Positions 6,512 through 32,124 of a DNA stretch of 45,898 nucleotides are shown here, one piece after another (position 1 is the stretch's first letter; every line of letters begins with the position of its first letter). The translations under genes and the position numbers were made by a program. The DNA comes from an uncultured Clostridia bacterium (GTDB lineage: Bacteria > Bacillota > Clostridia > UBA1381): NCBI GenBank assembly GCA_944390955.1, contig CALXRY010000131.1:1-45898 (forward strand), written 5' to 3'. Under the pieces are notes generated by a model. That model had not been told where the DNA came from, made no database searches, and was given only the letters and a program-made list of their open reading frames with translations.

Positions 6512-7850
6512 CTTTCATCAGCTCCTTATCTGCCTGTTCCTGCAAAGCCATAGCCTGCCGTTTTTTCTCGGCAATTTTGTATGAGTCTTTAAAAATGGCT
6601 TTGCACATTCTGATTTCCTTCCGGAGTTCGTTAAGCTCCGTATTGATTGCTTTCGCTTTTTCCTTGACATCATCACAATTTTCATCAGTCCTTTCATCGT
6701 ACAGCTTTTTACGCTGCGTAATTAAAATATCAATTTCAACCTCCCTGCTTTGCTGATATTTCTGTAACTGTTCGCCCGTTTCAATATCGTGTGAAAACAA
6801 AAATTTGAACTGCTTCTGATAGCGGTCAAACTTTATCATCTCCTCACGCATAAAAAATGACACCCTTTGCGGTGTCTGCTTACGCTGTATTTTTTTGAAC
6901 AGATATAGGTAGTGGAAGTAGAGTGCCATAAAACCTTTCAATTTTTTACCCTTGACATTTTTAAGACTGCCTCGGAATTTATATTGCTTTTTCGGCATCT
7001 CTGACGGTGCAGCCGTAATGATACCGTTACGGGTTGCGATAATTCTTTCCAAAATTTCTGCTTCGCTGTAACCTTCACCGAGATTATCAAGACGCATCGG
7101 GCGTTTTGCGTTCGGTGCTATTATGGAGGTGTATTTGATATTCGGTCCCTTGCGGTGAACGACAAAACCACGTTTTTTTAAGTTTTGCCAAAACTGCTCC
7201 ATAGTGTAAGAGCATTTTATAATCTCGTCAATATCCCTGCGGATACTGCCACGGATGGTCGGTCTACCTTGCTTTAACGCCAGCCATTCGCCGTAGTGCA
7301 TACCTCGCCGTTGGGGATGTTCAATTACCGACAAAAAGTTTTCACGGCAGATTTGGTCGGATATTCCTCGAATGTCTATAAAGTAGTCCTTGAAATTATT
7401 TCGGTATTTGTAACCGTCAAGATATGAAACGGCATTTATGATGATGTGGTTATGCAAATGCTTGTGGTCGAGATGCGTTGCGACAACAACCTCGTATTTA
7501 TCCGCAAACAAACGCTCCGCAAGCTCAAGCCCGCATTTATGAGCAATCTCCGGCGTTGTTTCAAAATCCTTGAAGGACTGTACCAAGTGATAAGCAAGAA
7601 CGGAATTTTTGCGCCCGGCTTTCCCGAAAAACTCTTGTGTTTCCATCATTTCCGAAAATGCTTTGTCTACCGTGCAGTTGTACGCTTTCACATACTTGCA
7701 CTGTTCCGTCTTGTCATTGTTCTTGATATATTTTATTACACCCTCGACTGCTTCAATGTCAGGCTGCAAAGTCGTCTTATCGGGATTTGCAATGTATTTA
7801 AGGCTTGTGTCAAGTCTTGATTTGACCGACCATATTTTTGTAATTGCCAT
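6486..7850 (-). CDS. Relaxase / mobilisation nuclease, MOBP type (454 aa)
   Basis: The enzyme should nick oriT and lead the strand into the recipient. The three-histidine metal motif is visible near residue 130 as HLDHKHLHNHIIIN, with conserved lead-in residues (ANPDKT, LAYHLVQSF). A candidate catalytic tyrosine lies in the N-terminal 20-60 residues, but I cannot fix which one. The C-terminal third is basic and coiled-coil-like (ERRTDEN, KEIRMCKAIF), as in related relaxases. The ATG overlaps the MobC stop as TGATG, so the two are coupled. It is followed by the PcfB-like gene. Full length for this family. Confidence 0.9.
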   Translation of the reverse strand: MAITKIWSVKSRLDTSLKYIANPDKTTLQPDIEAVEGVIKYIKNNDKTEQCKYVKAYNCTVDKAFSEMMETQEFFGKAGRKNSVLAYHLVQSFKDFETTPEIAHKCGLELAERLFADKYEVVVATHLDHKHLHNHIIINAVSYLDGYKYRNNFKDYFIDIRGISDQICRENFLSVIEHPQRRGMHYGEWLALKQGRPTIRGSIRRDIDEIIKCSYTMEQFWQNLKKRGFVVHRKGPNIKYTSIIAPNAKRPMRLDNLGEGYSEAEILERIIATRNGIITAAPSEMPKKQYKFRGSLKNVKGKKLKGFMALYFHYLYLFKKIQRKQTPQRVSFFMREEMIKFDRYQKQFKFLFSHDIETGEQLQKYQQSREVEIDILITQRKKLYDERTDENCDDVKEKAKAINTELNELRKEIRMCKAIFKDSYKIAEKKRQAMALQEQADKELMKDEHKRRSR

Positions 7851-8158
7851 CAGCGCACACTCCTTACAAGCCGCATAATTTCATCTTGCATTTTGAGGAC
7901 TTCTTCAATTTTATCTGCTGAAATATGTCTTTCGGCATTTGCGATATGCGCTATCTGATTTATGTTGTTGCCCACAGCATTTATCTCACGCAGCAGCTTT
8001 ACATATTCATCAGGCGGACGGGGACGAATAACACTACCCATAATCAGCTTGCGGATAAAAGCACCTACACTAAGTCCTGCAACAGCGGTCTGCTTTACAA
8101 GGTGCTGTTTCTCTGCATCCGATAAATATACAAGAACTCCATTTTGTCTGTTTCTCAA
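7850..8158 (-). CDS. mobC: MobC-like relaxosome accessory protein (about 102 aa)
   Basis: The protein has the usual plan of small mobilisation accessory proteins: an N-terminal ribbon-helix-helix-like part (GVLVYLSDAEKQHL, then AGLSVGAFIRKLIMG), a middle LLREINAVGNNINQIAHIAN motif typical of MobC, and a C-terminal helix. It should bind oriT and help the relaxase. I chose the TTG at 8158, which has GAGGTG six bases upstream; a GTG at 8167 would overlap that ribosome site. It overlaps the relaxase start by three bases. The probable oriT lies just upstream. Confidence 0.8.
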   Translation of the reverse strand: MRNRQNGVLVYLSDAEKQHLVKQTAVAGLSVGAFIRKLIMGSVIRPRPPDEYVKLLREINAVGNNINQIAHIANAERHISADKIEEVLKMQDEIMRLVRSVR

Positions 8159-8169
8159 AAAAATCACCT

Positions 8170-10372: not shown

Positions 10373-11361
10373 CTATCTTGCCATAGCGTATTCACGCTTT
10401 CTTTGCGGCACTTGTGCGTCGGATACATCAGTGTCGATAACATTATCGTCCTTCTTATCCATTTTGAGAAGTGCTTCAACGGCGGCAAGCCGTTTTGTTT
10501 TTTCTTGTAATTCAGCCTCTTGCGGAAACGGTCGCTTTGCTTCAGCCTTTGCCGTTTCATACTGCGTATTGGTGTTTGCAAGTTCTTCTTTTGCGATTTC
10601 AAGCCGTTTTTCAAGACCGTCCAAAGCATTGTCGATACGCTGGATATTACCGAATACATCTGTGCCAAGCTCTACCTTGTGAGAAAGCTCATTTTTAAGT
10701 GACACATAAAACAGCTTTTGAAAGCTGTCAAAGGACAGCTCCATAGAAAAACCCCGGTAGTCACCGATTAAAACCGGCTCCTCCGAGGTCATTTTCTTGC
10801 AGCGTTCTATAAGTGCATTTCCCGCTTTTTCCTTTTCAAAATATCCGAATCCGTCAATGGTCATTGTATTGAATTTATCCTCTATCTTAGGGTATTTTTT
10901 AACTGTCTGAATATCGGTTTCCAATCCCTTAATTCTTGCGGTGGTTTCGGCAATCTGTTTCGGGTAATACTTCACAACCTTATCTTCGAGGTCATAAATC
11001 TGCGACATAAAGGACGATTTTATCAACTTCAGCTTTGATACCTCCATATCAAGCTCCATTTTTTCCTTGATGTACGGGTTGCCCGTTGACAGTGCCTTGA
11101 TTTCCGCAAATGAAAGTGCGGTAGGATCTATATCGTCCGCCACTCTGACGGGGGATTTTGAAGTAAATATCTGCGATATAAACTTCTGTTTCTGCTCAAC
11201 GGTTTGCCACATATATGTATCAAAGGTACCTTTGGTAACATACCGGTAAATATGCACTTTTTCGTTTGTATTTCCTTGCCGTATAATTCTTCCGGCTCGC
11301 TGTTCAAGGTCTGCCGGACGCCACGGACAATCGAGATCATGAGAGGCATAAAGCAGTTTTT
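10373..11361 (-). CDS. Methylase/helicase exon 3
   Basis: It begins K-L-L-Y-A-S-H-D-L-D-C-P-W-R-P, then carries helicase motif VI (QRAGRIIRQG), a NTNEKVHIYRYVTKGTFD segment and a coiled-coil end. A frame starting at 11257 (294 aa) is only part of this exon. Confidence 0.88.
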
Positions 11362-14300
11362 ATAACGATAGGTAAGGCTTTGATATCATCTCCACCTTTT
11401 CCCCCGTCCCACACCGTACGTGAGAGTTTCCCCTCATACGGCGTTCCATCAATTGTAGGTAAACTTAGTTATAAGATTAATTTTCAGTATCCTTTTCGGC
11501 GTTTAACATTATTGCTTCGTTCCCACAGAGTACACGCAGTTTGTTCAGTTTTTCGATTTTTTGTTTGTTTAGTTTAAAGTTTGAAATCAGTCTTGCTATT
11601 ACCTCAGCATTAACCGCATGGATTAATACATGAATATCTTTGTCCACTATTATCAGATTTTTATACTCATCACCGCCGCCTTGTTTTCTTGGTTTCTTGT
11701 GGTGACAATGAATTCTGTCTATAGAAAGCAACTCATTTGTTATCGCACACCGCCCTTTTTGTGCGATATACAGAGATATTCGGTTATCGTTATATTCAAT
11801 GGTTTCACTATCTACGGGATTTCTCATTAATGCATGAACCATTGACATATCTATATTTTCAAGCTGTTTATGAATAAATTCTCGCCCTTCTTTCGTAAAT
11901 GCATTTATCGTTTTCTTCTTGTGAATGGGCGGTTGATGACTCACATAACCAATCGGCAGCAGAATATTCTTTCCAATAAAACGTATTTCTTTACTTGCTG
12001 CATATTCTAACGCATATCGCGGTATTGATTCGTTATTTCGTCGCTTTACTCTCTTTTGAAGCCTGATTTTAATGGACTGCTTTATACTGTATGCAAGCGG
12101 TTGAAAATCGGCATTTACATCAGTCGCCATTCGGTAATAATTGTGTATTCCCATAATGTAGCTGTTGTAATTATTGATTGCTCGGTATTCCGCACTTTCT
12201 CCTTTACTTCTGCAATATTGAATATCCTTTATGTACTCGGAAGCCCTGTCATGGATTCTATTCAAAGCCTTTTCCGATACATGAGATTTAATTACATATT
12301 TATCGCAGACTATATTATTCTTCGTCGTTTTGCCTTTCTTGTGTACCTTAATTTTAAATCCAAGAAAATCTGAATAATTATGTTTAAGGTTTACAATCTT
12401 TGACTTCTCAGGACTTATGTCCAGTCCCAATCTGTCTTTAAGCCATAGTTTGACTGCTTCAAATATTTTCACTGCGTCATTATGTTTTCTGCAAAAGATT
12501 TTAAAATCATCGGCATACCTAACGATATAGCATTCTTTTAATTTTGTTTTCCTCAATGCTCTGTACTTTTTTGACCTGTCCTTTGCGCCTGTAGTATGAA
12601 TTCGTCCGCTGTATTCATGCTTTGTGGGTATTTCCTCCCACTGCGAGGCTATCCACCAATCTAATTCATTTAGCACAATATTTGACAGCAGTGGACTTAT
12701 TATACCACCCTGCGGTGTTCCTTTCTCGGGGAAACCTATTCCTGCAACCTCTGCTTTAAGCATAGCTGATATTATTGATATGAGTGTTTTATCTCTGATA
12801 CCCAATGTCCACATCTGCTTTAAAAGCTTTCCGTGGCTCACATTATCAAAGAAACCCTTAATGTCAATATCAATAACAATATGCAGATTACTGTTTTGTA
12901 TTAATTTTTCAGCTTGTGCCAGAGCATTTTCTACACCTCTGTTTGGTCGAAATCCGTTACTTGTTTCTCGGAATTTTGCTTCACATATAGGCTCCAATAC
13001 TTGATAGAAGCACTGCTGAATCAGTCTGTCTGTTATTGTAGGAATTCCCAGAGGTCGTTTCTTAGTCGGGTCACTGCTTTTGGGTATTTCTACTCTGCGT
13101 ACTGATTGAGGTTTATACCATTTTAGCTTGTTTTTAATAAGTCTAACTATCTTTTCCTCGCTCATAGCAGATAAATGCTTAATCGTTTTTCCGTCTGTTC
13201 CTGCCGTTTTGCTACCTTTATTTTTCTTTATATTTCGGTAGGCAAGTTTTATATTTTCATCAAGCAGTACATACTGCATTAAATTTGTAAAACTTACATT
13301 TTTCAAACTTTTAGCATAAAGCTCATCGAAAATCTGTTGTGTATCGTAATACTCATTATTACGAAGCTTTTGACGCTTTAACGCCTTGTTCGGATTTACT
13401 GCCAAAGTCAGGTACTCACCTTGCGGCTTTCTCTTTTCTTAGTCATACTCGAACCTTTAGAATTAATCTTAACTTTTAGTTCAATCCTGCAATTGACTGG
13501 CGGCTGTTCCTCCACGGCTTGTTATCACCGCTTCATCGGTCGTGCCGCCGCTCTCAGCCAGACAAAGCGAGTTGTTACATTGCTGTTTCTTTCCTCACTG
13601 CCACCAATGTGCAAACATCTTTTCGGGAACTTGTGCAAGTTCCGTTGGCGTTCTGACCTTTCCTCGTTCCGATATTCCTATCTGTTTCATGCTTGCCCTT
13701 AGGTTTATCCTATAAGCCTGTGCGCTTGCCAATGCCTGTAACATTGCAAGGTCTTTCATAACGTACAATTTTACTCAACCTCACGCACACCGTAAATTTA
13801 CAGTTACGCCATTTCTAACGTATCACGCTTTAGACTCGTACATTCGGATATATCGTCAGTCATAATGACATTCTAACCATAGGCATTTTATAGACCCCCG
13901 GCGTATCATCTGCACACCCCGCCTCCGGAGCGGTTTCCACATCAAGCTGCTGACAGCAGTCTCCTGTTTGGGCAGACTTCCGCCGACTTCAACGAGCTTC
14001 GCACCCTCACATTTTGCACTATGAGCGCACGTCGTAGTATCAGGGCAGGCGTTTCAGGGCGTTACTCCATCATTCCACCTGTCGGAATATCAGTTCTACA
14101 AGACTGATAATTTTACTATATTCAGTTGTATTTTTCGTGTCTTGTGTCTAACCTTTTCAGTTAGAAACGAGTCGCACGCACATTCGTTCCGGCACCCATT
14201 TTTGAGGTGGAGCCAAGAAGCACACGCACATCGCCGCTTCTGACTTTCTTGAATAATTCGTCTTTTTTAACCTCCGTGTTTGCGTCGTGAATAAAGGCAA

Positions 14301-17300
14301 TTTCATTTTCGGGTATGCCTTTTTGGAGCAGCTTTTCTCGTATACTATTATATACCGAGAATGTACCGTCCGATTTCGGTGTTGATAAATCGCAGAATAA
14401 AAGTTGTGTTGATTTCTTTTCTGCGGTATCTTTCCATATTTCATATACACACTTAGCACACACCGATACCTTTGAGGTTTCGTCATCGGGAAGCATAGGG
14501 TTTATCATTCGTTGGTCGAGAGCTAATTTTCTGCCATCGTTTGTTATTTTCAGCATATTGTCAACGCTCGGATCTACGCTTCGGTTTCGCACTTCTTCGG
14601 CTCGCTCTCCAAGGTCTGCAACCATATCTTTTTGAAATTCGGTCGGCTCAGCGACTTCGTTATGATACTCAACCTCTGGCACAGGCAAATTCAGCATATC
14701 CGCTGTCTGAATATCGGCAACCTCTTTGAACATTGCAATGAGTTCGGGTAAGTTAAAGAATTTCGCAAACCTTGTTTTCATACGATACCCACTGCCCTCC
14801 GGTGCAAGCTCCATTGCCGATACAGTTTCACCAAATGTGGAAGCCCACGCATCAAAGTGCTGCAAGCCACGCTCTTGAAGTGATTTATATTGCAAATATC
14901 TCTGCATTGTATATAACTCTACCATTGAATTGCTTACCGGCGTTCCTGTTGCAAAAATAACACCTTTACCGCCCGTAAGCTCATCAAGATACTGCGTTTT
15001 CATAAAGAGATCGCTTGATTTTTGTGCTTCGGTCTGTGCAATACCGCCCACATTACGCATTTTTGTGTAGAGGAACAATGTGTACCACCTACGCACCGCC
15101 GTTAGGCGTGTACGTAGTAGATACTTTGTCGTGATAGGTAATTCTTTGATGTTATCTCCGAATTTTCCCCCACCTCACACCGTGCGTACACCTTTCGGCG
15201 TACACGGCGTTCCATCAATTTAACTTACTACCCTCCATCGGGGTTCAACGGATATATGTCCTCACGGAGCATATTCCGCTTACAAATTTCACTTTAATTT
15301 TTCTCTGTATTTCTCGATTTTCTTAATTACCTTTTTATCCGTATTTACAGGTATGGGACTGTTGTGTATCATTTTGTGGCAGTCATAACAAACCCATGCA
15401 AGATTATTGACTTTGTTTATTTTATCCATTGACAGTTTGTTATTAACATGATGACAATGCTTCTGTATTAAACCGTATAAATCCTTTTTTACAACATTTG
15501 CACTTTCCCTTATCACGATTAAAGGCATATTCTCTGTTCATAAAATACTCAAAATTGTATTTACCTGTTGCATATACTGCAAGTCGTATATCGTCACTTG
15601 TATTAACAGACGGTCTGTTATGCGGTAACGGCTTGTGTTTGTTTCGGTATTGAACATAGATTTTTCTGCCTTCTTCGGTATAAGGCGTCATTTTCTGATT
15701 AAATGGTTTTTGCTCATATTTTGAGTGAGTAATAAATGCCATTGTTATTCCAAACCACATTCCCTCAACAGGGATTGCAAAGGTTTTACTGTCGTAGTCC
15801 TTATGCCTTTGCGGTAGATTTGACAAGTGTTTTAACGGGATTTGCCATGAATTATATCTGTCAGGATATATCCGTTTCCATACTGAAAATGCACTGTTAT
15901 TTACACGCCTGTCTATGACATGAAGTGCATGGGAACATATACTTGAGCTGATATATTCTGCAATACCCATTATCACGGAATTTATATACTGTATTTGTGC
16001 TATTCTGCTGTTTATGGCGGAATAGTTTCGTATGTCTCTTATTTTGGCACATAAATTCTTGACTTTCTTTGTCAGTCTGTCCATATCGGGGTATGGCTTG
16101 CCAACTAAATGTTGTTTGTTGTTTTCAGGTGTTTCCCGAGGCTTTTCAGCTTTGATAATAAATCCGAGGAAGTGTATTCCCTCTGTTTTAAGGTCTGTTA
16201 CTTTTGTTTTCTCCTGTGACAATTCAAGCTTCATTTTATACATAAAGTATTTTGTCAGTTCAGCTTTTAGTCTGTCCGCCTCTTGTTTTGTTGATGTCAG
16301 TATTACCCAATCATCTGCATACCTGAAATTATATTTTGGATTTACACCCAACCATTTTAATCGCCTTGAGTCATTGCATTTATACTTGCACCGTCTGTGA
16401 GGATTGTAATATTTTCTGCCTATATACCAGTCAAAATCATTGAGATATACATTTGCCAACAAAGGTGAGATAATACCGCCTTGCATAGTACCGATATTAC
16501 TGTTTTTGAACATATCGTATTCGATATATCCCGATTTCAGCATAAGACCGATAATTTTAATCAGTCTTTTATCGTGTATTCCCAGACGCCATAGTTTTTG
16601 TAACAGTAGTCTGTGATTGATATTGTCAAAGCACCCTTTTATATCACCCTCTAAAGCCCAGACGGGCTGTTCCGATGATTTATATGAGGCGTTTATCACA
16701 TTGACTATATCTCTTACAGCGTGCTTTTGTGCTCTGTACGGTCTGAAACCATAACTATGCGGATAAAATTGTGCCTCGCATATTGGTTCAATAACAATCC
16801 GTACACATTCCTGAATAATTCTGTCAAGAATTGTCGGTATTCCAAGCGGTCGTTTTTTACCGTTACTTTTGTCTATATACACACGTTTGGCAGGTTTTGG
16901 TTTATAGTCTGAAAGCGCATTTCTGACTAAATTTATTACTTCATCTTTTGGCATTTGCAAATATCTATCCATTTTGATTTTGTCAACACCGGAGGTTTTA
17001 CTTCCTTTGTTGGACTTGATATTATGGATAGCTGTTACAATAGTCACTTCATGAATTACTGCTTCAAGCAGTCCTGTAAATTTTGTACCTTGTTTGGCTT
17101 TATCATACAGAAAATCAAGCAGGCTCTTTAAATCAGCCTCATTTGAAAATCTGACGTTTAAATGCACAAGGCTATCACCTCGCAGTTCGTCACCCATTAT
17201 TTCAGGGAGTTAGTAATTTTCGTTTTGTGAAATTTGTAAATTAAACTGACTCGTCTCCTTCGCCATGAGATATTTCAATCTCGTGTAATTGGCTTTCCCA

Positions 17301-20300
17301 ATCTCAGACTACTATGAGACGGCTGACTTCCTATGCATTTCATAGCCCTGTAAAGCTCTAAGCATAGGCTCTCAAACGTTCCTAAATCTCTATCCTTTTT
17401 TTTGATGTTTTTAGGTCGTCACCTTACACCGTGGAAATTTAGCATACTTTGAACCACAGTTTTTGTATGCTTCCGATACGCATTTCAGCATTACCGTGAA
17501 TATACTGAAAAACCAGCAATATATTCCTTTCCATTCATCTCCTTTTCAGGAGCCACTTCCTCTTACGATGCTGCATGACTTTCTGTAATTGTAACCATAG
17601 ACTTCGGAAACCCGCATTATATATTCCATATCATACGAATGAGTATGACTTAGGACATCAAATTACGACTTTACCACGCTTTGTACCATAGGTATTTACA
17701 GATACCTAACGCACAGTGGAGTATCAGTTCTCGTACTGCCCACAGTTTTGACATACTGTCTCTGGCATTGGTTCAGTACGGCAGAGGAATTTCACCTCTG
17801 AATTTGAGATTTAAGTTCTCTACGATATTTTCTTATATATTTAAGTGCTATCGTATGGTGCTTTTCGTCATAGCTGTCAACTATGACTTATGCACAACGT
17901 TTCGCACAATTTTTATAGTAATGTGCCTCGTCCACAAACACCCTGTCAACGCCGATTTCTTCAAAGGTAACAACATCATCCTTACGGTCTTGGTCGTTGA
18001 GTTTTTTTAGTTTTGCTTCAAGTCCACGCTTTGTTTTTTCCATTTGTTTTACGGTGTAACGCTCCGCATTTTCGGCTTTTGCTGCTGCAATTCCGTCTAA
18101 AATTTCATCAAGTTGTTTTTGAAGTATCGCTTTTTGCCTTTCAGCCGACATAGGTATTTTCTCAAATTGTGAATGACCGATAATAACGGCGTCATAATCA
18201 CCCGTTGCAATTCTGCCGCAGAATTTCTTGCGGTTTTTCATCTCAAAGTCCTTTTTTGTTGCAACAAGGATATTCGCCGCCGGATACAACTGTAAAAATT
18301 CGCTTGCCCATTGTTCCGTAAGATGATTTGGTACTACAAAGAGAGATTTGTTACACAGTCCCAACCGCCGTGATTCCATTGCAGCCGCAACCATTGTCCA
18401 AGTCTTACCGGCACCCACGACGTGTCCTAAAAGCGAATTGCCGCCGTACATAATTCTTGCGACAGCGTCCTTTTGGTGCTTACGCAGGGTTATTTCGGGA
18501 TTGATACCGTTAAAGGTTATATGGCTGCCGTCATATTCACGGGGACGGATAGAATTAAACCTTACATTGTATATTTTACAGAGGTCATCACGCCTTTCGG
18601 GAGTTTTCCATATCCAATCCTCAAAGGCTTGCTTGATTGCCGCTTGCTTCTGCTGTGCTATTGTCGTTTCCTTGATATTCAGCTTTGCAACCTTGTTTCC
18701 GTTTTCATCGTAAACATAATCAAAGATACGAACATCTCGCAGATTAAGCGAATCCTCAATAATTTTGTATGCGCTTATTCGGTTTGTGCCGTATGTGTTG
18801 GTAGCTTTTACACCTTTATCGGCACTCTTGCCTTGAATATTCCATTCGCCCGTAAGATTGGAGTATTTCACATCAATTTTATTACCGGCATAGTAATTGG
18901 GCGAAAGCAAATCAAACACAAAGTCCTTTATATACTTTTCCGGTATCCAAGTTGTACCGAGTTTTACGGAGATTTCTCCCGGTGTTAAGTCCTTCGGCTG
19001 TACCTTTTGCAAGTATTCTGCATTGATGCGGTATTCGGAATTTTCCTCTGCAAACAGCTCCGCCTGACTTAACTTTTCACGCACATTACCCGACAGATAC
19101 TCATCAGCAGTCAGATATTTCGGCTCATTTTCGGGAGATATTTCGTGTTCAGGATTTAGGAAGATAACGCCGTGCAAATCCTCATACAGCTGTTGTTCGG
19201 TTTTGCCGGATAGCTTTTCCATAAAGGGTATGTCTATCTTTGCCTTTTCGGCAAGCGATACCACCAATGCTTCATCCGCCGTATCAACCTTAGTAACTTC
19301 GTGTTTGGCTCTTATGGTGCGTTTGGTGAACATATCCGCTTTGCGTGCAAGCTCGCCGTATTCGTCCAATACCTCTAATGAACAGAGCAGGAAATAACTG
19401 CTGTCCTCAGAAAATGCAAGGGCATTGCCACGAGAATTTATGAGTCCGTATTTCTTTGTGTAATCATTATAGAGCGTGTTGAGTTTTGCCTGTTGAGCCT
19501 TGATTTCATCATCGGAATAGTTTTCCGTTTGATATTCGATTAAAGTTCTCACGCAGTCACGCAGTTCAATCATACCTTTTACACGGTTTTCAGCCGTTGC
19601 GTTCAGTTCCACCTTACGCATTATGCTGTTTTCACGAAAATATATATCTCCGTCCACAACCGTAAAGCTGAAATTGCGTACATTTGGATCTGCCGGGATA
19701 GTAACTTCCTCATCATTTGAAACATCCTCAAATTCATATTCTGTAATTTGTGCGTGTATGTTCTGAATGGCTCCGTCAAGCTGTTCGGCAAGTGTGGTGT
19801 TTTCGTCGGGCTCACAGGTAAGCTCCGGACCGAAAGGACCGCTGACTTCTTTCAGTTCACCCATAACCATATCGGGATTATCTAAAAAGTAGCGGTTTAC
19901 AAATTGTCCTGTTTCGTGTTCGGCAACTTCAACCCATTCCGGCATAATATCCGTCATACGCTCACGCTTTTGCAAAAAGAGAATATCAGCCGTAACCTCT
20001 GTTCCGGCATTCTTCTTAAAGGTGTTATTCGGCAAGCGGATTGCACCGATTAAATCGGCTCTCTGTGCAATATATCTACGCACCTTTGAATTACGCTTAT
20101 CCATAGTGCCGGAGGAGGTGATAAAGGCTACAACGCCGCCCGGTCGCACTTTATCCAAAGTCTTTGCGAAAAAGTAATCGTGTATGAGAAAATTGTGCTT
20201 GTTATACTTCTTATCAAGCAGCTTGAAATCTCCGAACGGCACATTTCCGATTGCCACATCGAAAAAACTGTCGGGAAGTTCCGAGTTCTCAAACCCTTGT

Positions 20301-23300
20301 ATGGCAACGGAGTTTTTCTGATAAAGCTGCTGTGCAATTCTGCCTGTGATACTGTCTATCTCCACACCATACATTTTGCTTTCTCTCATACTGTCCGGCA
20401 TGAGTCCCATGAAATTGCCGATACCGCAGGACGGTTCCAAGATGTTGCCCTGTGTAAATCCCATATTGAAAAGTGCCTTATACATTGCCTTGATTACAAC
20501 GGGCGGAGTGAAGTGTGCGGTAAGCGTTGACGCTCTTGCTTGCTCATACTCATCGGGCGAAAGAGTGGTGTATAGTTCCTTAAATTCCTCCGACCAATTT
20601 GATTTTGTTTCGTCAAAAGCATCTGCAAGACCGCCCCAGCCGACATACTGTGATAAGATTTCCTGTTCGTCGGGAGTAGCCAACCTATGCTCAAATTCAA
20701 GCTGATGCAAAAGATGTACAGCTTCTACATTCCGCCTGAATTTCTCTTTCGGTGTTCCGTATCCGAGTTCTTCATTTGATATTTGAAAATTGTGACGCTC
20801 GGAAACAGGTATTTCGGGATACACAACAGTATTTTGTGCCTTCTGCGGCTTTGCCCTTTGAAATTCTGCCGTTATCTGCGGTTTAGCTTGCTCTGCAATA
20901 ATGCTTTTTACAAAATCTATGCTCTCGCTTCGGAATATGGGAAACCCCGTACTGTTTTGAAAGGTTATATCCTTTAATGACACCTTGTTAAAATCAGTAT
21001 TTACGCTGTCAACAACAAATTTTCGGTCGTCAATGGTAATTTCTTTGCCGACAAGACTTTCAGTGGTGTCAGTTGTTTGCTCGGCTTGCTCCGGTACAGC
21101 CTTATCCGCCGACAGTATTCTGTACGACTTTTTGTTTTCATCTGCAATTACAACATCATAGCCCTTGTAGGTAAGAGTATCTACATACTTTTCAAGAGCG
21201 TGTTTCGGAAAACCAGATATTGTATATCGTTTACCGTCAATGATTTTCGTAGCTGAAGCAATATCAAGCTCCCGTGCAATATTTTCAGCATCCTCGTTAT
21301 AGCTTTCATAAAAATCGCCGAGTGGCAGAAGTGCTATTGTTTTTGAGCCGTTGTCATCCTTGTGAAGCTCTGCAAGATATTCATCAAAGGTCTGTTCCGG
21401 TATTTCCTTTTCTGTCTGATTTTCTGCCCGTTCCGCTGATATGGCATTATACATTGCCATATCGTCCTCGGTCAGATTATAGCTCTCGCCATAGTCAAGG
21501 CTTGTTTCAACATGGTCAACAACCTCCTGTTTGTCCTCCTCGGTCATTTCTGAAAGCTGAGTTTCAATAGTTTCTTCGGCAGCCTCCTCAATCCTGTCGA
21601 TATGCGGAAACAGGTTGTATTCACCGTTTACATACTTCTCAAGGTCTTGTATTGCCGCTTCTCTTAACGGGTAGCTTCTTGAGTCGGCAGGCGTTTGGGC
21701 AAGCAGCTCCTTTAAGTCCGAAAGCATTGTCTGCGTATGTGCTTTATCGTTCAGCTTTTGCTTTAAAATGTCTTTTGTCTTATCATAATCTGCATCGGAC
21801 GGATACGGCATAACCGTATTTTCATCGGTATCAAACATATATGCTTGTCTGATTTTGAGAATAAGTTGCTCTTTTTCATAATTCGGAATATTCCTAATTT
21901 CAGCGTCACTCAGATAATCGCGGCTTTTAATAAGCCTGTCAATATGCTTTTCGGCTTCATTCCATTTTATTTCTATCTTTGCATAAGGCTTTGACAAATC
22001 GCCGTGGCTGAAGGTTATGCCTTTGGCATCGTGATTTTCATTGTATACACCCGTATAACTTCCGCCCCAGCCGTAGTGATTTTTAAGAAAAGTTATCCTT
22101 TCTTTTTTATCGGAATGGGTATCAAAGAATAAGTAAATGCTGTATTTTCCTTCCGAAATACCGCTGCCTCGCTTAAACATTTTATCAATTTCATCTCTTG
22201 AAATAAAGCGTTCCGGAGGAGTGTAGGTCAAGGCTTGCGCCGGAAAGTCTTTTCTTGCGATATATAAGTCAGCAAGCATATCGTTTACAATATTGGGGTT
22301 ACTATATCTAAATCTTGTAACCCTATTGTTTTCTGCATACATATCTGATAATTTTTGAGTTATTGTTTTAATCTCGTCTAAGCCTTTAGCGGTTTTTAAG
22401 TGTTCGGCAATACGCTCGGTGCTGTCGGGGAAGCCGCCCTTAAACCACTCGTCTTTGAACATATTCCTCAATTCGGGATATTCATCAAAATTAAGGTCAC
22501 GCTCCATATACCAAAATGTGTTTGCCGCTTTCTTGTATTCATATTTATCCATTTGTAAAAGCGTATCTTTCGGAGCAAATCTGCCCAAGTCCAAAAGCTC
22601 ATCAATTCGTTTTGCAGCGTCCTCCCAAGATAAAAGCTGTGCAGTATTTGTGTTTGCACTGTCCCCGTAGGATATTCGTATGCCTTGTTCATTCCACCAA
22701 GCCGATACCTTTCGTCCGTCCAAGATAAATCCCTTACCGTCCGATTTATACAAATTTCTTAAAAACTGCGCTTTATCCGCAAGGGATTTATCCTTTGAAA
22801 ACTCAATACAGATTTCAATGACGCTGTTTCGGTCATTTGTTCCGTCGCATAAAACCTCGTCAATAACCTGCTGAGGCATAGAAAAAGCAGCACCGAATAT
22901 TTCCTGTGCTGCTCTTTGTACCGTTTCTCTTTGCTGTTCCTCTGTGGGAATAAGGTCAAACAGACTTAGCTGTAAACCACCTCCGGCAGTACGATTTCCT
23001 CCGCCGAATGTAAAAGATTGTTCATCAGTCCTGTCCACATCATTGGATTTTTCGCTTTCAGTTCCTCGGTCACGCCCTCGGTCTGTGCCATCTTCTGAAT
23101 GATGCTCTGTATCTGCTCGGTCGCTGTCCGCTCTACCTCCAGCAGATGCTCCGTTATCATGCCCGTTATCATAAGGCTGCTGTATAGGCTCGGTCGGCTC
23201 TGTTTGAGATATTTTCTCCTCATCTGTCCGTATTTGCCTATCTGTACCGTCTGATGCGGCACTGTCAAGTTTGGTATCTGATACCCATTCACTTCCGTGT

Positions 23301-24163
23301 ATGTTATCTCTGTCATAGTTACCCGTCCTTTCGTCATTTATTGTGGGTATATTTTCTTCTTTGCTTTCATTATATACCGCATTTTTATTTTCCGCAAAAT
23401 TTTTTCGGTTTTTTATTTCCTCACGCACTTCCGCATGGATAGTTTCGGAAATACCACGCAGAGCTTCCTCAGAAATACTTGATACGGCATTGCCCAAGAC
23501 AGAAATTACGGAAGTTGTGTTAAAATCCATAATGTGCGGAAAGTCCTCACGCTCAAAAATCTCATCGGGGTTTATTCCGAGCCTGTGTAAAACCATATAT
23601 GCAATACTTGTTTCAGCTGTTCGCTGAAATTCTACTTCAATATTCAGCTCGTCCAAGTCCTCCAAAAAGCTGTTTTGCTTTTCATATTTAAGCTCTTGCA
23701 GATAGTCCGCCTTGCTGTCCTCGATTGCATTTTGAGCCGCACTTATGACAGCCTCCGTAATTGTGTCTTTTGATTTTAATTCGCCGAAAGAATTTTCAAG
23801 CGTTTCAATAATCGCACTGTCAAAACGGCTGTTATATTGCCAAAGCCTTACCGGAACGTTATTGCTGTGCGTGTCGGAAATGTCAAAAACATAGTCAAGA
23901 TATTGTCCCTGGTCGCCTTCACGGAGAAGGGCAATACCCTTGCTTCCTCGGTTTATCCAACTGTGAAGCCGCTTGTTCCACACATCAATGCTTGCACACG
24001 CCGTCGCATCGGGACGCTGTGCGTAGATTAAAAGCTGGTCGTGAAACGGATATTTATACTGCCACGCCGCACTTTTCAAAAAAGCCGTCCAACTTTCATA
24101 ACCGGACAAATTTCTGCTGACATTTTCGGACAGCTCGTATATATATTGCAGTTTGCTTGCCAT
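10373..24163 (-). CDS. DNA methylase/helicase of ICE, split by two group II introns (2714 aa after splicing)
   Basis: Exons are 24163-17908, 15077-14178 and 11361-10373 on the minus strand; together 8145 bases, exactly 2715 codons. N-terminus: ICE antirestriction-like region (SWTAFLKSAAWQYKYPFHDQLLIYAQRPDAT, here abridged by position 25-55). A methylase domain follows (YVGWGGL; EPSCGIGNF near residue 1245; GNVPFG near 1305, a variant of the NPPY/F motif). The SNF2-like helicase has GAGKTW near 1918, DEAH near 2078, TGTPVSN in exon 2 and QRAGRIIRQG in exon 3. A coiled-coil C-terminus ends it. Such proteins are a hallmark of Tn1549-like elements, thought to act in transfer or restriction evasion. 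The start has GGAGGTGAACGCAAA upstream. Without splicing the protein would stop just after DEAHYYKN. Confidence 0.85.
11410..11446 (-). ncRNA. Domain V of intron 1
   Basis: The hairpin arms CCGTATGAG and CTCTCACGTACGG are the catalytic core of group II introns. It lies about 48 bases before the intron 3' end, the normal spacing for a domain V-VI end without extension. Confidence 0.85.
11477..13405 (-). CDS. ltrA: Group II intron reverse transcriptase/maturase with intact HNH (642 aa)
   Basis: RT blocks are in order: KRPLGIPTITDRLIQQ near residue 116, GFRPNRGVENAL near 151, PQGGIISPLLSN near 231, and VRYADDF with catalytic YADD at 297-300. The maturase/X domain follows, and an HNH endonuclease end near residues 560-600 (CAITNE, RIHCHHKKPRKQGGG, NLIIVDKDIHVLIHA). 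It assists splicing and drives retrohoming. The start is TTG at 13405 with AAGGTGAG upstream. All functional motifs are intact, so the intron could be mobile. Confidence 0.93.
   Translation of the reverse strand: MAVNPNKALKRQKLRNNEYYDTQQIFDELYAKSLKNVSFTNLMQYVLLDENIKLAYRNIKKNKGSKTAGTDGKTIKHLSAMSEEKIVRLIKNKLKWYKPQSVRRVEIPKSSDPTKKRPLGIPTITDRLIQQCFYQVLEPICEAKFRETSNGFRPNRGVENALAQAEKLIQNSNLHIVIDIDIKGFFDNVSHGKLLKQMWTLGIRDKTLISIISAMLKAEVAGIGFPEKGTPQGGIISPLLSNIVLNELDWWIASQWEEIPTKHEYSGRIHTTGAKDRSKKYRALRKTKLKECYIVRYADDFKIFCRKHNDAVKIFEAVKLWLKDRLGLDISPEKSKIVNLKHNYSDFLGFKIKVHKKGKTTKNNIVCDKYVIKSHVSEKALNRIHDRASEYIKDIQYCRSKGESAEYRAINNYNSYIMGIHNYYRMATDVNADFQPLAYSIKQSIKIRLQKRVKRRNNESIPRYALEYAASKEIRFIGKNILLPIGYVSHQPPIHKKKTINAFTKEGREFIHKQLENIDMSMVHALMRNPVDSETIEYNDNRISLYIAQKGRCAITNELLSIDRIHCHHKKPRKQGGGDEYKNLIIVDKDIHVLIHAVNAEVIARLISNFKLNKQKIEKLNKLRVLCGNEAIMLNAEKDTEN
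14178..15077 (-). CDS. Methylase/helicase exon 2
   Basis: Exactly 900 bases. It begins with the residues that complete the motif after HYYKN (L-F-L-Y-T-K-M-R-N-V-G-G) and contains TGTPVSNSMVEL, and ends with GSTSKMGAGTNV. The first codon is completed by one base from exon 1, and the last C is completed by exon 3 to give Gln. Confidence 0.88.
15078..15127 (-). ncRNA. 3' extension hairpin beyond domain VI of intron 2
   Basis: Fifty bases lie between the equivalent of the normal intron end (CGAC) and exon 2. CTACG pairs with CGTAG, CAC with GTG, GCC with GGC, around a TAAC loop. The exon position is fixed by the helicase frame, so these bases cannot be exon. Similar extensions are known in the B. 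cereus-group intron B.c.I4. Confidence 0.65.
15175..15212 (-). ncRNA. Domain V of intron 2
   Basis: The arms CCGTGTACGCC and GGTGTACGCACGG fold around a GAAA loop. It is at the normal distance from domain VI but about 97 bases from the splice site because of the 3' extension. Confidence 0.8.
15289..15484 (-). pseudogene. Detached HNH end of intron 2 RT protein
   Basis: This frame continues the endonuclease domain: DLYGLIQKHCHH, then LAWVCYDCHKMIHN. Removing one A from the six at 15485-15490 gives KCKCCKKDLYGLIQKHCHH without a break and a protein of about 635 aa, the usual full length. It has no ribosome site of its own. Confidence 0.75.
15443..17197 (-). CDS. ltrA: Group II intron reverse transcriptase/maturase, endonuclease truncated by frameshift (584 aa)
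   Basis: RT blocks are visible: KKRPLGIPTILDRIIQE near 114, SYGFRPYRAQKHA near 148, QGGIISPLLANV near 239, and FRYADDWVI with YADD at 293-296. The maturase region follows. At residue about 572 (KCKCCKKG) the frame shifts at an A6 run and ends. GTG 17167, preceded by GAGGTGATAGC, is a better start than ATG 17197. RT and maturase parts look intact, so splicing may work while HNH-dependent bottom-strand cutting should be lost or weak. Confidence 0.85.
   Translation of the reverse strand: MGDELRGDSLVHLNVRFSNEADLKSLLDFLYDKAKQGTKFTGLLEAVIHEVTIVTAIHNIKSNKGSKTSGVDKIKMDRYLQMPKDEVINLVRNALSDYKPKPAKRVYIDKSNGKKRPLGIPTILDRIIQECVRIVIEPICEAQFYPHSYGFRPYRAQKHAVRDIVNVINASYKSSEQPVWALEGDIKGCFDNINHRLLLQKLWRLGIHDKRLIKIIGLMLKSGYIEYDMFKNSNIGTMQGGIISPLLANVYLNDFDWYIGRKYYNPHRRCKYKCNDSRRLKWLGVNPKYNFRYADDWVILTSTKQEADRLKAELTKYFMYKMKLELSQEKTKVTDLKTEGIHFLGFIIKAEKPRETPENNKQHLVGKPYPDMDRLTKKVKNLCAKIRDIRNYSAINSRIAQIQYINSVIMGIAEYISSSICSHALHVIDRRVNNSAFSVWKRIYPDRYNSWQIPLKHLSNLPQRHKDYDSKTFAIPVEGMWFGITMAFITHSKYEQKPFNQKMTPYTEEGRKIYVQYRNKHKPLPHNRPSVNTSDDIRLAVYATGKYNFEYFMNREYAFNRDKGKCKCCKKGFIRFNTEALSSC
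17908..24163 (-). CDS. Methylase/helicase exon 1
   Basis: This exon carries the N-terminal region, methylase and the first helicase motifs up to DEAHYYKN. Read without splicing it continues only four codons into intron 2 (C-A-K-R-C-A) before a stop, giving 2091 aa. The truncated product would keep the methylase and Walker A/B but lose helicase motifs III-VI. Confidence 0.9.
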
Positions 24164-27418: not shown

Positions 27419-28345
27419 TCATCGCTCCTTTTCGTTTTCTCGCTGTCTATGCCATTTATCAAGCAGTTTCAAGATAATTTCTTCCATTTTTGCTTTTGTA
27501 TAGCTTTTGGGAAAGTATTTTTTCAGTTTATCTTCTCCGAGTGTGACTTTTATCGTTTCGGGTTTTTGCTCCATCATAATGCTGTCGATGACGGCTTCAT
27601 TTAATTTTCCGTCTTGATGAAATTTACGGATTTTCTTTGCCTGTGCAATGGAGGGGGAGGTGTCCTCTTTTTCGATAGACTGCATAACCGCCGCCTGTTC
27701 CTTTGAACCGAGATAGGAAAGCTCAACGGCAGCGTTCATTGCAATTTGATTATCGTCTACCATTTGCAAGATTGGATCAATGAGGTTTGTCAGACGGATA
27801 TATCGGCGTATTTGGTCTTTGCTTTCGCCGACTTGTTCTCCCAAAATTTCGCTTGACTGTTTTCCTTGAAAATTCAGCGCAATTTGCTCTGAATTTTCTT
27901 TTAACGGTCTGCCGGCTTTTCTTTTCATAGCTTCCAACTTCATCTGATACGCAAACGCTTTCTCGCTCGGCAGTATATGCTCTCTCTGCAAGTTGCTGTC
28001 TACAAGCAAAATTGTAGCAGTATCATCGTCAAGATTTTTTACCACAACTGGGATTTCCGTAATTCCGGCAAGCTCACACGCTTTTACACGCCTGTGCCCC
28101 GAAAGTATTTCATAGCCGCCGTCCTTGTGCGGTCTTGCGATTACCGGAGTTAAAACGCCGCTTTGCTTTATGCTGTCTACAAGCTCGTCCATACTTTCGT
28201 CAAGAAGTACCTTGAACGGCTGCTGTTCAAAGGGTTTCAGCTCGGATATGGGGACGGGCTTTATTTCCTCACTGTTTCTCTGCTCGTCATTTTGAAAAAT
28301 ACTATCGTATGATTTCAGACTTATGTTTATTCCGCTGCTTGCCAT
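27419..28345 (-). CDS. parB: ParB-like partition protein (308 aa)
   Basis: An N-terminal ParB/Srx nuclease-like domain (SIKQSGVLTPVIARP, GYEILSGHRRVKACELAG) is followed by the KorB-type HTH region (SEILGEQVGESKDQIRRYIRLTNLI). It should bind a centromere site and stabilise the circular or integrated element with ParA. I chose ATG 28345 with AAAGGAGGTGCTTGAAG upstream. It overlaps ParA by 44 bases, a strong coupling. Confidence 0.9.
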   Translation of the reverse strand: MASSGINISLKSYDSIFQNDEQRNSEEIKPVPISELKPFEQQPFKVLLDESMDELVDSIKQSGVLTPVIARPHKDGGYEILSGHRRVKACELAGITEIPVVVKNLDDDTATILLVDSNLQREHILPSEKAFAYQMKLEAMKRKAGRPLKENSEQIALNFQGKQSSEILGEQVGESKDQIRRYIRLTNLIDPILQMVDDNQIAMNAAVELSYLGSKEQAAVMQSIEKEDTSPSIAQAKKIRKFHQDGKLNEAVIDSIMMEQKPETIKVTLGEDKLKKYFPKSYTKAKMEEIILKLLDKWHRQRENEKER

Positions 28346-29120
28346 CTTCAAGCACCTCCTTTGTCAGTTTTCTGTACGCTTCGGCAACCTTGCCGTTTTT
28401 GGCATAGCTGTAAATACTTTTGCCGACTGCCGATATTTCGGCGGCTTTGATTGATAACGGAATTTCAGTTTTGAACACCTTGATATTATTTCCGTAAGTG
28501 TTTCGGATAAGCTGTGATATATCCTTTGCAAAGTTCGTTCTGCTGTCAACCATAGTGAGAAGTATGCCGTTTATTTTTAACTGTGGATTTATCTGCCGCT
28601 TAACCTTGGCTATCGTTCCGAGCAGCTGTTCCAAGCCTTTTGCCGGTAGGAAATGAGATTGCACGGGGATAATCACTTCGTTTGCCGCCGTCAGTGCATT
28701 GACCGTCAGCATACCGAGTGATGGTGTGCAGTCAATCAGCACATAGTCATAATTGTCCTTTACCTGTGAAAGATAATTTTTAAGAACACGCTCTCGGCTC
28801 ATTATGTTTACAAGCGCCGTTTCCATACCCGACAATTCTATATTTGCCGGAATGAAGTCAACGCTCTCAGCGTGATGCAAAATGCCCTCGTCCTTTGCGA
28901 CAGGCTGTTCGTTTACGGTCTTTTCCATAAGTGTTGAGATTGTAACTGAAAGTTCATCGGGATTTGGATAACCAAGACTTTGTGTTAAGCTGCCCTGTGC
29001 GTCAAAGTCAATCAGCAGCACCTTTTTACCCTCGTTTGCAAGTCCTATGCCTAAATTTACCGTTGTAGTCGTTTTTCCCGTTCCGCCTTTCTGATTTGAT
29101 ATTGCGATTATTTTACTCAT
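28302..29120 (-). CDS. parA: ParA-family ATPase (272 aa)
   Basis: Deviant Walker A is KGGTGKTT at residues 11-18, Walker B-like LIDFDAQG near 36 and VLIDCTPSLG near 126. It is the partition ATPase partner of the next gene. Start ATG 29120 has AAAGGA upstream. It begins eight bases inside the preceding small gene, so the rep-par genes form one operon. Confidence 0.93.
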   Translation of the reverse strand: MSKIIAISNQKGGTGKTTTTVNLGIGLANEGKKVLLIDFDAQGSLTQSLGYPNPDELSVTISTLMEKTVNEQPVAKDEGILHHAESVDFIPANIELSGMETALVNIMSRERVLKNYLSQVKDNYDYVLIDCTPSLGMLTVNALTAANEVIIPVQSHFLPAKGLEQLLGTIAKVKRQINPQLKINGILLTMVDSRTNFAKDISQLIRNTYGNNIKVFKTEIPLSIKAAEISAVGKSIYSYAKNGKVAEAYRKLTKEVLEDGKQRNKHKSEIIR

Positions 29121-29310
29121 AAAAATCCGTCCTTTCTTGTTCTAATCTTTTAATTATCATCTCTCCGTCCACTCGTGTTAAAACCTTAAACCACTCCGAA
29201 CGGAAGAAACGCTTTATTTCTGCTCTTACCTGCGGCGAATATGTATGTCTGTAATCCCTTACCGCTTGCAGGATAATAGCGTTTGCCAACAATTCAAAGT
29301 TATCATACAC
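29113..29310 (-). CDS. Small ICE protein between repA and parA (65 aa)
   Basis: A mainly helical protein (LLANAIILQAVRDYRHTYSP, then EIKRFFRSEWFKVLTRVDGE). It starts at GTG 29310 with GGAGGGATAT upstream and overlaps parA by eight bases. Its position in a rep-par operon suggests a part in replication or partition, but no family is recognised. Confidence 0.65.
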   Translation of the reverse strand: MYDNFELLANAIILQAVRDYRHTYSPQVRAEIKRFFRSEWFKVLTRVDGEMIIKRLEQERTDFYE

Positions 29311-29327: not shown

Positions 29328-30341
29328 CTATTTATTTGCCATATCATACTGCACCTTTGCAGAAAACCAATTATCCGCCGTTTCGAACGAACGGTAAATT
29401 GTTGTAATTAAAAACGCCCGTATATTCCGGACGTCTGATGTGTTGCTCCTTAGAGCCATATCTATGTATTCAATATGCGACGAGTCGATTTTCAAAAATC
29501 TGCTTTTGACAACCTCGTGCGGATAATCCTGCTTGTTGATGCGTATTGTCGGCTCATCACTGCATACAACATCAACCATAACAGCGACGATTTCATCAAG
29601 CCAAGCCTTGCTGTAATTATTTACGATAATGTCATAGTCAATATTGTTTTTGATAATATTTTCGTATGTCTGCCGTTTTTCTATCCATCGCATCGTATCA
29701 ATCCCTTTTCCCGCAGACGAGGGGGAAGTATTACAGTTTATCCGATTGATAGGATAGGATGTGATTTCAGTATCGTTCCTCTCTGTATAATTCTTTTCAG
29801 TATCGTTATAATTAGTTTTATTATTATAAGTATTATTTGCGTATGATTTTGGAACTTCTTGAAGTTCGATTTTCATATTTGCAGAAGTTTGATTTTCATA
29901 CTTCTGTAAGTCTGAATTTAATACTTCTTGATTTTCGATATTCATACTTTCGGTATTTTGATTTTCATACCGCTTTTCTTTGGGGTTATGTATAAAGTTT
30001 TTTACATAAATAATATTCGGTCTGCCAAGTCCCTGCCGCTTGCGTTCTATAAGACCGATGCCCTTTTCAAGCTCATCAAGCAGTTTCAATGCCTTTTGTC
30101 TTGCGCAGCCAAAGTCGCTTAAGATGTCGTCAATGGTATAAATGATATATACTCGGTTATCATCATCAAACCAACAGTTCTTGACGGATAAACTCATACG
30201 GTCAAGCATAAAGCTGTATAGCACTTTCGCTTCAACGGAAATATCCATAAATGCTTCATCTGTAAAAAGCACTTTGGGAATACGGTAAAACGAAAACTGT
30301 TCTGCTTGACTTCCGTAAAAATATTCAAATTGTACTGACAT
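29328..30341 (-). CDS. repA: RepA_N-family replication initiator (337 aa)
   Basis: The N-terminal part (FYRIPKVLFTDEAF, KVLYSFMLDRMSLS, YTIDDILSDFGCARQKALKLLDEL) is the RepA_N winged-helix domain. The low-conservation middle (about residues 115-170) carries an ENQ-rich stretch that overlies 23-bp DNA iterons. The C-terminal domain (LDEIVAVMVDVVCS, IRINKQDYPHEVVKSRFLKI) matches the helical domain common in ICE RepA proteins. It may drive autonomous replication of the excised circle. ATG 30341 has AAAGGAGGC upstream. Two hairpin terminators precede it. Confidence 0.88.
   Translation of the reverse strand: MSVQFEYFYGSQAEQFSFYRIPKVLFTDEAFMDISVEAKVLYSFMLDRMSLSVKNCWFDDDNRVYIIYTIDDILSDFGCARQKALKLLDELEKGIGLIERKRQGLGRPNIIYVKNFIHNPKEKRYENQNTESMNIENQEVLNSDLQKYENQTSANMKIELQEVPKSYANNTYNNKTNYNDTEKNYTERNDTEITSYPINRINCNTSPSSAGKGIDTMRWIEKRQTYENIIKNNIDYDIIVNNYSKAWLDEIVAVMVDVVCSDEPTIRINKQDYPHEVVKSRFLKIDSSHIEYIDMALRSNTSDVRNIRAFLITTIYRSFETADNWFSAKVQYDMANK
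29845..29982. repeat. Iteron array inside repA, 23-bp period
   Basis: On the plus strand GATTTTCATA-like sequences start at 29868, 29891, 29914, 29937 and 29960, each exactly 23 bases apart; a sixth weaker copy (GATTTTGGA) starts at 29845. Copy consensus is GATTTTCATACTTCT plus eight variable bases. Because 23 is not a multiple of three, selection must act on DNA rather than protein. RepA_N plasmids are known to carry their origin as repeats inside the initiator gene. Confidence 0.8.
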
Positions 30342-30466: not shown

Positions 30467-30486
30467 TCAGCGTTGTTACCTTTTAA

Positions 30487-30563
30487 TGCACAAATTCCTG
30501 CACAAATTGGCGTAGTATTGGCGTAGTATGGCGTAGTTTTGGGACTTTTCAAAGTCCCAAAAC
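30487..30563. repeat. Repeat cluster and palindrome at lysS/ICE junction
   Basis: Two copies of TGCACAAATT (30487 and 30499) are followed by three copies of GGCGTAGT with A/T-rich ends (30509, 30520, 30530) and then by a perfect 13-bp palindrome, GTTTTGGGACTTT..AAAGTCCCAAAAC (30536-30563). No gene is here. The palindrome has no T-run on either strand. Such short direct repeats fit arm sites of a tyrosine recombinase or a replication control region; no integrase is in the window to confirm this. Confidence 0.6.
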
Positions 30564-30591
30564 CCGCATAAATACTGACTTTTCTCGATTT

Positions 30592-32124
30592 TTACTTCTC
30601 CAACGGCTTCATTGTGGGGAAAAGCAGCACATCGCGTATCGAATAGCTGTCGGTAAGGAGCATGACAAATCTATCTATGCCTATCCCCAGTCCGCCTGTC
30701 GGCGGCATTCCGTATTCGAGCGCCGTGAGGAAATCCTCATCGAGCATGCTTGCCTCGTCGTCGCCGGCAGCCCTTAATTCAAGCTGCTTCATAAATCTTC
30801 CGCGCTGGTCTATCGGGTCGTTGAGCTCCGAGAACGCATTTCCGAATTCGCGGCCCGTGATGAATATCTCAAATCTCTCGGTAAGCTCCGGCTGCGACGG
30901 CTTTCTCTTTGCAAGCGGCGATATCTCAACGGGATAATCCGTTATGAACGTCGGCTGCACTAGCTTATCCTCAACGAATTCATCGAAGAACAGCGCGATA
31001 ACGTCGCCGCGCGTCTGCTTTGCCTTGTCCACCTCAAGCCCCTTTTCCTTTGCAAGCTTAACGGCATCCTCATCGGTCTTGATCTCGTTGAAGTCAACGC
31101 CCGCGTATTTCTTTATCGAATCGATCATCGTCAGACGCTCAAAATGACCAAGGTCAATATCAACGCCCTGATAATTAACGACGGTCGTTCCGCATACTGT
31201 TTCCGCACAGTAGCGCATAAGGTTTTCAGTCAGATCCATCATGTCGTTATAGTCGGCATACGCCTCGTATATTTCTATTGTTGTAAATTCGGGATTATGC
31301 TTTATGTCCATGCCCTCATTTCTGAATTGGCGTCCCATCTCATAGACCTTCTCCATACCGCCCACGATGAGCCGCTTGAGGTGAAGCTCTGTCGCGATCC
31401 TCAGATACATGTCCATATCGAGAGTATTGTGATGTGTTATAAATGGTCTCGCGGCAGCTCCGCCGGCGATAGTATTCAGGATAGGCGTTTCGACCTCAAG
31501 ATAGCCGAGCCCATCAAGATAAGTTCTTATTGCTGTAAGTATCTTGGAACGCATGATAAACGTTTTCTTAACGTCCGCATTCATGATAAGATCGACATAG
31601 CGCTGCCTGTAGCGCAGGTCTGTGTCGCTCAGCCCGTGGAATTTCTCCGGCAACGGCAGCAGCGACTTTGAAAGCAGCGTGATCTTTTCGGGACGTATTG
31701 AGATTTCGCCTGTCTGCGTCGTAAAGACCTCGCCCTCGGCGCCGATTATATCACCTATATCGAGCTTCTTGAAGCGGTTGTATTCCTCCTCGCCAAGGAT
31801 ATCCTTCTTGACAAAGAGCTGTATCTGTCCGTCAGTATCAGCAATATGGACAAAGCCAACCTTGCCCATACCGCGCTTTGACATTATTCTTCCGGCAACG
31901 GAGACCTTCTGCCCGTCAAGCGGCGAAATTTTTGCAGTCACTTGCTTTTCCTCTCCGCGCGAAACTATCGTTCTTTCTTCCGTCGTATAGCCCTCGGTTA
32001 TCTGCCCCGAGGTATGTGTGCGGACGTATTTTGTTATACGGAACGGGTCCCTGCCCTCCTCCTGCAATTCAGAGAGCTTATCTCTTCTTACCTGCAAAAG
32101 CTGTGATAATTCCTTTTCTTCCAT
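30592..32124 (-). CDS. lysS: Lysyl-tRNA synthetase, class II (510 aa)
   Basis: Charges tRNA-Lys. The OB-fold anticodon-binding part is at about residues 60-160 ([20 protein letters not shown]). Class II motif 2 ([22 protein letters not shown]) and motif 3 ([14 protein letters not shown]) are visible, and the gene ends [11 protein letters not shown]. Full length and intact. AAAGGA precedes the ATG. The ICE lies just downstream, so any native terminator has been displaced or shared. Confidence 0.97.

Follow-up and report, generated by a model that had tools for sequence, protein, structure and literature searches.

The repA gene of an ICE-type element at lysS carries, inside its own coding sequence, an array of 23-bp iterons. 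From sequence comparison, this array is very probably where the initiator binds within a theta origin (oriV) of the RepA_N type. The analysis covers a stretch of 45,898 nucleotides of clostridial DNA (the window).

RepA has 337 residues (gene at 29328–30341, minus strand) and is divided by Pfam, AlphaFold and Foldseek into a RepA_N domain (aa 17–91), a disordered linker (aa 118–213) and a DUF6017 C-terminal domain (aa 210–335). The N terminus matches PF06970 (E 2.4e-28, 98.3 bits against a cut-off of 30) and the C terminus PF19481 (DUF6017, E 3.7e-34). A RepA profile matches RepA N-terminal domain structures at E 5e-32, and the top Foldseek matches are the RepA N-terminal domains 4pql, 4pt7 and 5kbj. 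An AlphaFold run, whose input was free of four rows from public records, falls below a pLDDT of 50 at residues 118–213 only, which predicts the linker to be disordered between two folded domains; a single-sequence fold of the DUF6017 domain (pLDDT 40) is too poor to judge its likeness to DnaD. RepA_N replicons are marked by a winged-helix RepA_N N-terminal domain, by iterated Rep boxes in mid-rep over the linker and by direct repeats whose inverted arms meet at a poly-A tract. All are found here, and every sequence feature tested fits membership of this class.

The array lies in the linker of this RepA_N plus DUF6017 gene. On the plus strand, GATTTTCATA occurs exactly at 29868, 29891 and 29960. 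The copy at 29937 has one mismatch, that at 29914 has two and the degenerate end copy at 29845 has three, and all six 23-bp units stand in perfect register. The preliminary description had listed copies at these sites; its register holds at all six and its exact copies at 29868, 29891 and 29960, while the word was slightly generous for 29914 and 29937. TRF recovers the array independently (29854–29970, period 23). Read on the minus strand (consensus AGAAGTATGAAAATCAAACTTCA), the units are A-tract-centred semi-palindromes spanning 29837–29974, with dyad centres at 29963, 29940, 29917, 29894, 29871 and, for the degenerate unit, 29848. The natural register set by these dyads gives units at 29837–29859 (degenerate), 29860–29882, 29883–29905, 29906–29928, 29929–29951 and 29952–29974; they are among the more degenerate of their kind, with 2–7/8 dyad pairs per unit. 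A period scan of the 45.9-kb window ranks the 23-bp array best, the runner-up period scoring 60. Period-23 identity is 77 over 115 positions, against a mean of 43.1 (maximum 55) when codon order is shuffled within the linker, and of 55.6 (maximum 69) in 2,000 synonymous-codon shuffles, a control that keeps the protein together with its pseudo-repeat.

Homologues were drawn from the host's family, GTDB genomes, plasmids and phage-labelled contigs; a scan of viral contigs for repA relatives returned none. About 30 homologues, down to ~32% identity, hold a 23-bp array at the same place, with 4 units in 12 genes, 5 in 8, 6 in 8, 7 in 4 and 8 in 1. In nearly all RepA_N plus DUF6017 genes the strongest period is 23 bp and lies in the interdomain linker, as it does in staphylococcal, Anaerococcus and Aerococcus RepA_N genes; a significant 23-bp array is absent from the RepA_N homologues L019 and L046 and from the second gene of L050. 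Other in-gene periods occur in RepA_N-containing genes of L052 (17 bp) and L049 (22 bp). Several enterococcal and lactobacillar RepA_N genes on Lactobacillales plasmids (L098, L099, L101 and L104) have repeats at mostly 54-bp (18-codon) spacing, some of which are similar A-tract palindromes. Three Butyrivibrio loci (L038, L039 and L040, 5946–7373) carry two tandem RepA_N ORFs, of 134–137 aa and 321 aa, with the array in the second only, and a 518-kb Monoglobus plasmid (L060, a megaplasmid record) has a repA relative with the same type of array beside parB. Across the related repA genes the period is kept as the protein drifts, and the unit sequences drift too. This is the opposite of conserved protein residues with lost DNA spacing, the pattern that the preliminary description had set against its own reading.

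Synonymous divergence locates the constraint in the DNA. Comparing the window gene with L032 (87% identical) gives 0.14 for the array against 0.61 for the two domains (Fisher p 2e-5); the corresponding values are 0.09 and 0.63 for the L033 comparison (p 2e-6) and 0.15 and 0.55 for the pair L034/L037 (p 6e-5), and as some pairs share sequences these p-values are not independent. Selection on DNA, as first claimed, is thus supported: among the closest pairs the array diverges by 0.09–0.15 at synonymous sites and the remainder of the gene by 0.55–0.63. In more distant pairs the amino-acid divergence of the array about equals that of the domains or exceeds it, and synonymous divergence is still lower. 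A low-complexity, repetitive linker in the protein is almost certainly not what produced the repeat. Linkers of this kind often are repetitive, and this protein does contain a 23-aa pseudo-repeat (YENQ, as had been described, at aa 125–128 and again 23 residues on at 148–151), yet the units fall in all three reading frames, again as first described, and were gained in steps that are not multiples of three: among homologues the frame of the last unit is mostly constant and the first unit occurs in any of the three, which indicates that units were added singly and not as codon multiples. Synonymous suppression, the covariation of arms described below and the synonymous shuffles (0/2000) also speak against it; a protein-repeat origin of the array is ruled out by the synonymous-site test.

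When 31 distinct consensus units are aligned in register, they have AGA...AAA...TCA in common and differ in their arms. No axis scores better than the dyad through the A-tract (0.63 complementary, against 0.38 for the next independent axis), and at arm positions 7–8 with 16–17 three or all four of the possible pairs occur. Across relatives the arms covary, with 41 cells changed on both sides against 13.9 in shuffled sets (0/500), and arm pairing drops from 78% to 50% or less when the partner is shifted by one, two or three columns. The aligned units match in sequence the published description of RepA_N iterons, semi-palindromic direct repeats in which inverted arms meet at a poly-A tract (PMC7145576). 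Iteron similarity follows the N-terminal domain of the protein (Spearman 0.30; partial given the C-terminal domain 0.37; Mantel p 0.0005) and not the C-terminal domain (Spearman 0.08; partial given the N-terminal domain −0.24). In L034 the C-terminal domain is 95% identical, the N-terminal domain is 56% identical and the iterons are different, indicating that N-terminal domain and iterons travel as one module. From these patterns we infer that RepA binds the units of the array.

The array belongs to a module in the order repA, a 65-aa ORF, parA and parB, leading into MobC, relaxase and DUF3801 genes, all on the minus strand. The small ORF (29113–29310) is conserved, with 78–81% identity in L037 and G070, and has no Pfam match. 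Domain matches identify parA (28302–29120, AAA_31 partition ATPase) and parB (27419–28351, ParB_N plus HTH), the latter containing a 15-bp inverted repeat with a 1-nt spacer at 27868–27898 (GAAAATTCAGCGCAA/TTGCTCTGAATTTTC), a possible parS-like site. The mobilization genes encode a MobC/NikA-like accessory protein (7850–8167), a MobA/VirD2-like relaxase (6486–7850; PF03432, E 5.6e-33), placed on the same element by synteny with G070 contig C16, and a DUF3801 (PcfB-like) protein (5813–6511; PF12687, E 6.2e-23). Contig C16 has the same gene order and then a VirD4-type coupling protein (PF02534), ~12 kb past the relaxase in this syntenic element and ~8–10 kb past it in G073. The window, where the contig ends first, shows no integrase and no T4SS genes, and a T4SS coupling protein was not found in the host's own genome (88.8% complete). 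Two group II introns (Rfam; 11362–14098 and 15128–17820) split one giant gene (10373–24163), whose ORFs at 10373–11257, 14161–15096 and 17888–24163 all match one ORF of 2875 aa that is unbroken in the G070 element (L082, 2567–11194).

Integration is at the 3′ end of chromosomal lysS (30592–32124, minus strand), as judged by comparison with G049, G050 and G055. The repA-side end of the element, marked by 11-bp direct repeats found by TRF (ATTGGCGTAGT, 30506–30542; candidate integrase arm sites), lies at lysS in the window and at the apparent 3′ end of guaA in G070, which identifies a mobile element. Matching the repA-side flank against the host's own genome gave no hit for the other end. ACGCCAA-type repeats stand beside lysS in G049 too, one copy adjoining the C terminus of a tyrosine integrase. 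Within the genus, the lysS 3′ end resembles an integration hotspot (window 30480–30592; L089, L090 and L095): it holds different DNA in three genomes, with ACGCCAA-like or ACGACCAA-like direct repeats.

We regard it as very unlikely that the array is a parS-like centromere bound by the neighbouring ParB. Partition sites are often iterated, and parA and parB directly follow repA; in evolution, however, the array tracks the N-terminal domain of RepA. It is also present in pSK41, whose annotated partition gene is of the parM type, and in pAPRE01 and Aerococcus, both lacking an annotated par gene in the stretch examined around repA. The palindrome inside parB is the better parS candidate.

The array is followed (29765–29843, minus strand) by 15-bp AT-rich repeats whose core is ATACT(GA); they form a candidate unwinding region defined by TRF, register, A+T peak and threonine codon bias. 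The window has cores at 29833, 29803 and 29773 and altered copies at 29818 and 29788; TRF reports period-15 rows at 29765–29803 and 29806–29837, and A+T content over 60 bp peaks at 0.82, a value within the window's top 0.2%. For most genes, the first ATACT core starts 15 nt past the last iteron centre and later cores follow at 15-nt steps; most other offsets differ from this by whole 23-bp units, presumably because the last unit was misplaced. In the 110 nt downstream of the array ATACT is counted 92 times, where synonymous shuffles give 30.4 (maximum 41). Threonine is encoded by ACT at 98 of 118 codons after the array (ACA at 13) and at 66 of 398 elsewhere (ACA at 189), a shift seen in 31 of 32 genes; ACT and ACA are equally A+T-rich, so base composition does not explain it. 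Judged by codon choice, the 15-mers are under DNA-level constraint. All 68 copies of the longer motif ATACTGA are in one frame, and an additional protein-level role may therefore exist.

A test for the ATACT 15-mer in enterococcal, lactobacillar and streptococcal-phage RepA_N genes was mostly not significant gene by gene, which limits the strong form of the 15-mer claim to the 23-bp group. HTH-type DUF6017 initiators (HTH_36, below cut-off; L030, L026, L054, L058, L059 and others) have in-gene 15-bp palindromic iterons, ATTGGAAAATCCAAC, read as LENPT with a period that is a codon multiple; similar AAATACT steps follow these iterons. It is a serious but tentative possibility that the 15-bp ATACT(GA) repeats, 15 nt past the last iteron centre, form a second, initiator-independent origin element for unwinding or helicase loading. 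Such an element would be common to staphylococcal RepA_N replicons and clostridial ICEs and, more loosely, to HTH_36-type and phage initiators with unrelated iterons and DNA-binding domains. The conserved 15-mer contradicts a review in which replicons of this class are said to lack an AT-rich region (PMC4490491), and it points towards a melting or loading site held in common. No mention of this 15-mer was found in the accessible literature; of all parts of the origin layout, the 15-mer in fixed register has the least documentation.

Doubt has been raised as to whether the RepA_N proteins of conjugative transposons still initiate replication, and another role has been the subject of speculation (PMC7145576). 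In such a reading the array would be a RepA-binding control site only, for autoregulation or titration of copy number, with RepA used by the ICE for transfer or stability and not for theta replication. Autonomous replication is not required of ICEs, and the anatomy of binding sites alone does not separate operator from origin. We nevertheless consider this improbable: the sites lie more than 350 bp inside the gene, away from the promoter; a strong iteron unit, looked for upstream of repA, was not seen there; and the adjoining fixed-register AT-rich repeats, together with the layout of the proven pSK41 origin, fit an origin. Replication of TnGBS ICEs with a RepA_N protein, as reported (PMC4701971), is a further argument against a control site.

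Taking the array as an origin, RepA would bind each A-tract palindrome as a dimer through its N-terminal winged-helix domain, and RepA multimers on 4–8 units would melt the adjoining 15-mers. The DUF6017 domain might then recruit host primase or a helicase loader, and ParAB could stabilise the excised circle until reintegration. An array kept at the DNA level and arranged as in pSK41 suggests that the element probably copies itself as a circle after excision; the self-replicating circle proposed at the outset is plausible, with TnGBS as a precedent (cited in PMC4701971). An in-gene origin under strong synonymous constraint argues that RepA_N proteins of conjugative transposons do still start replication, and the array offers an exact 140-bp target for testing this. 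The joint exchange of N-terminal domain and iterons suggests a way in which such elements change incompatibility.

Among the closest known systems is pSK41 of Staphylococcus aureus, whose origin is experimentally defined within rep; four Rep boxes are bound by the N-terminal domain, and the central protein segment is dispensable for replication (PMC5703833). As a positive control, a scan of pSK41 (NC_005024) made without prior box coordinates recovered period 23 and four units, AGAAATGTCAAAAGGACACGTCT, the published number. The earlier proposal that the origin is kept as repeats inside repA gains support from this fit to a proven origin with four 23-bp boxes at the same place. Both replicons have a RepA_N N-terminal domain, an in-rep origin of tandem 23-bp A-tract semi-palindromes over the linker and, directly after the array and in the same register, 15-bp ATACTGA repeats, which the clostridial genes share as ATACT(GA). 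They differ in that pSK41 has four near-identical boxes and the window six more degenerate units, in the C-terminal domain (Bac_RepA_C in pSK41, DUF6017 in the window) and in setting, a staphylococcal plasmid against an integrated clostridial element. ICEs of the Tn5252/Tn1549 families and TnGBS (PMC4701971) resemble the window in pairing a RepA_N initiator with ParA on an integrative conjugative element; in the window, comparative evidence documents the in-gene origin. The RepA of PLE, a phage satellite of Vibrio cholerae, is likewise a RepA_N initiator on an integrated element with semi-palindromic A-tract iterons, but these lie in a non-coding region and phage helper functions are required (PMC7145576), whereas the window array is in-gene. 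In pPR9-type hybrid initiators (PMC5703833), N-terminal domain and origin move together as a module against the C-terminal domain, and L034 and the HTH-type DUF6017 genes show the same; the DNA-binding N-terminal domain of the pPR9 type is HTH_36, unlike RepA_N, and the HTH-type genes of this analysis have 15-bp iterons, unlike the 23-bp iterons of the window.
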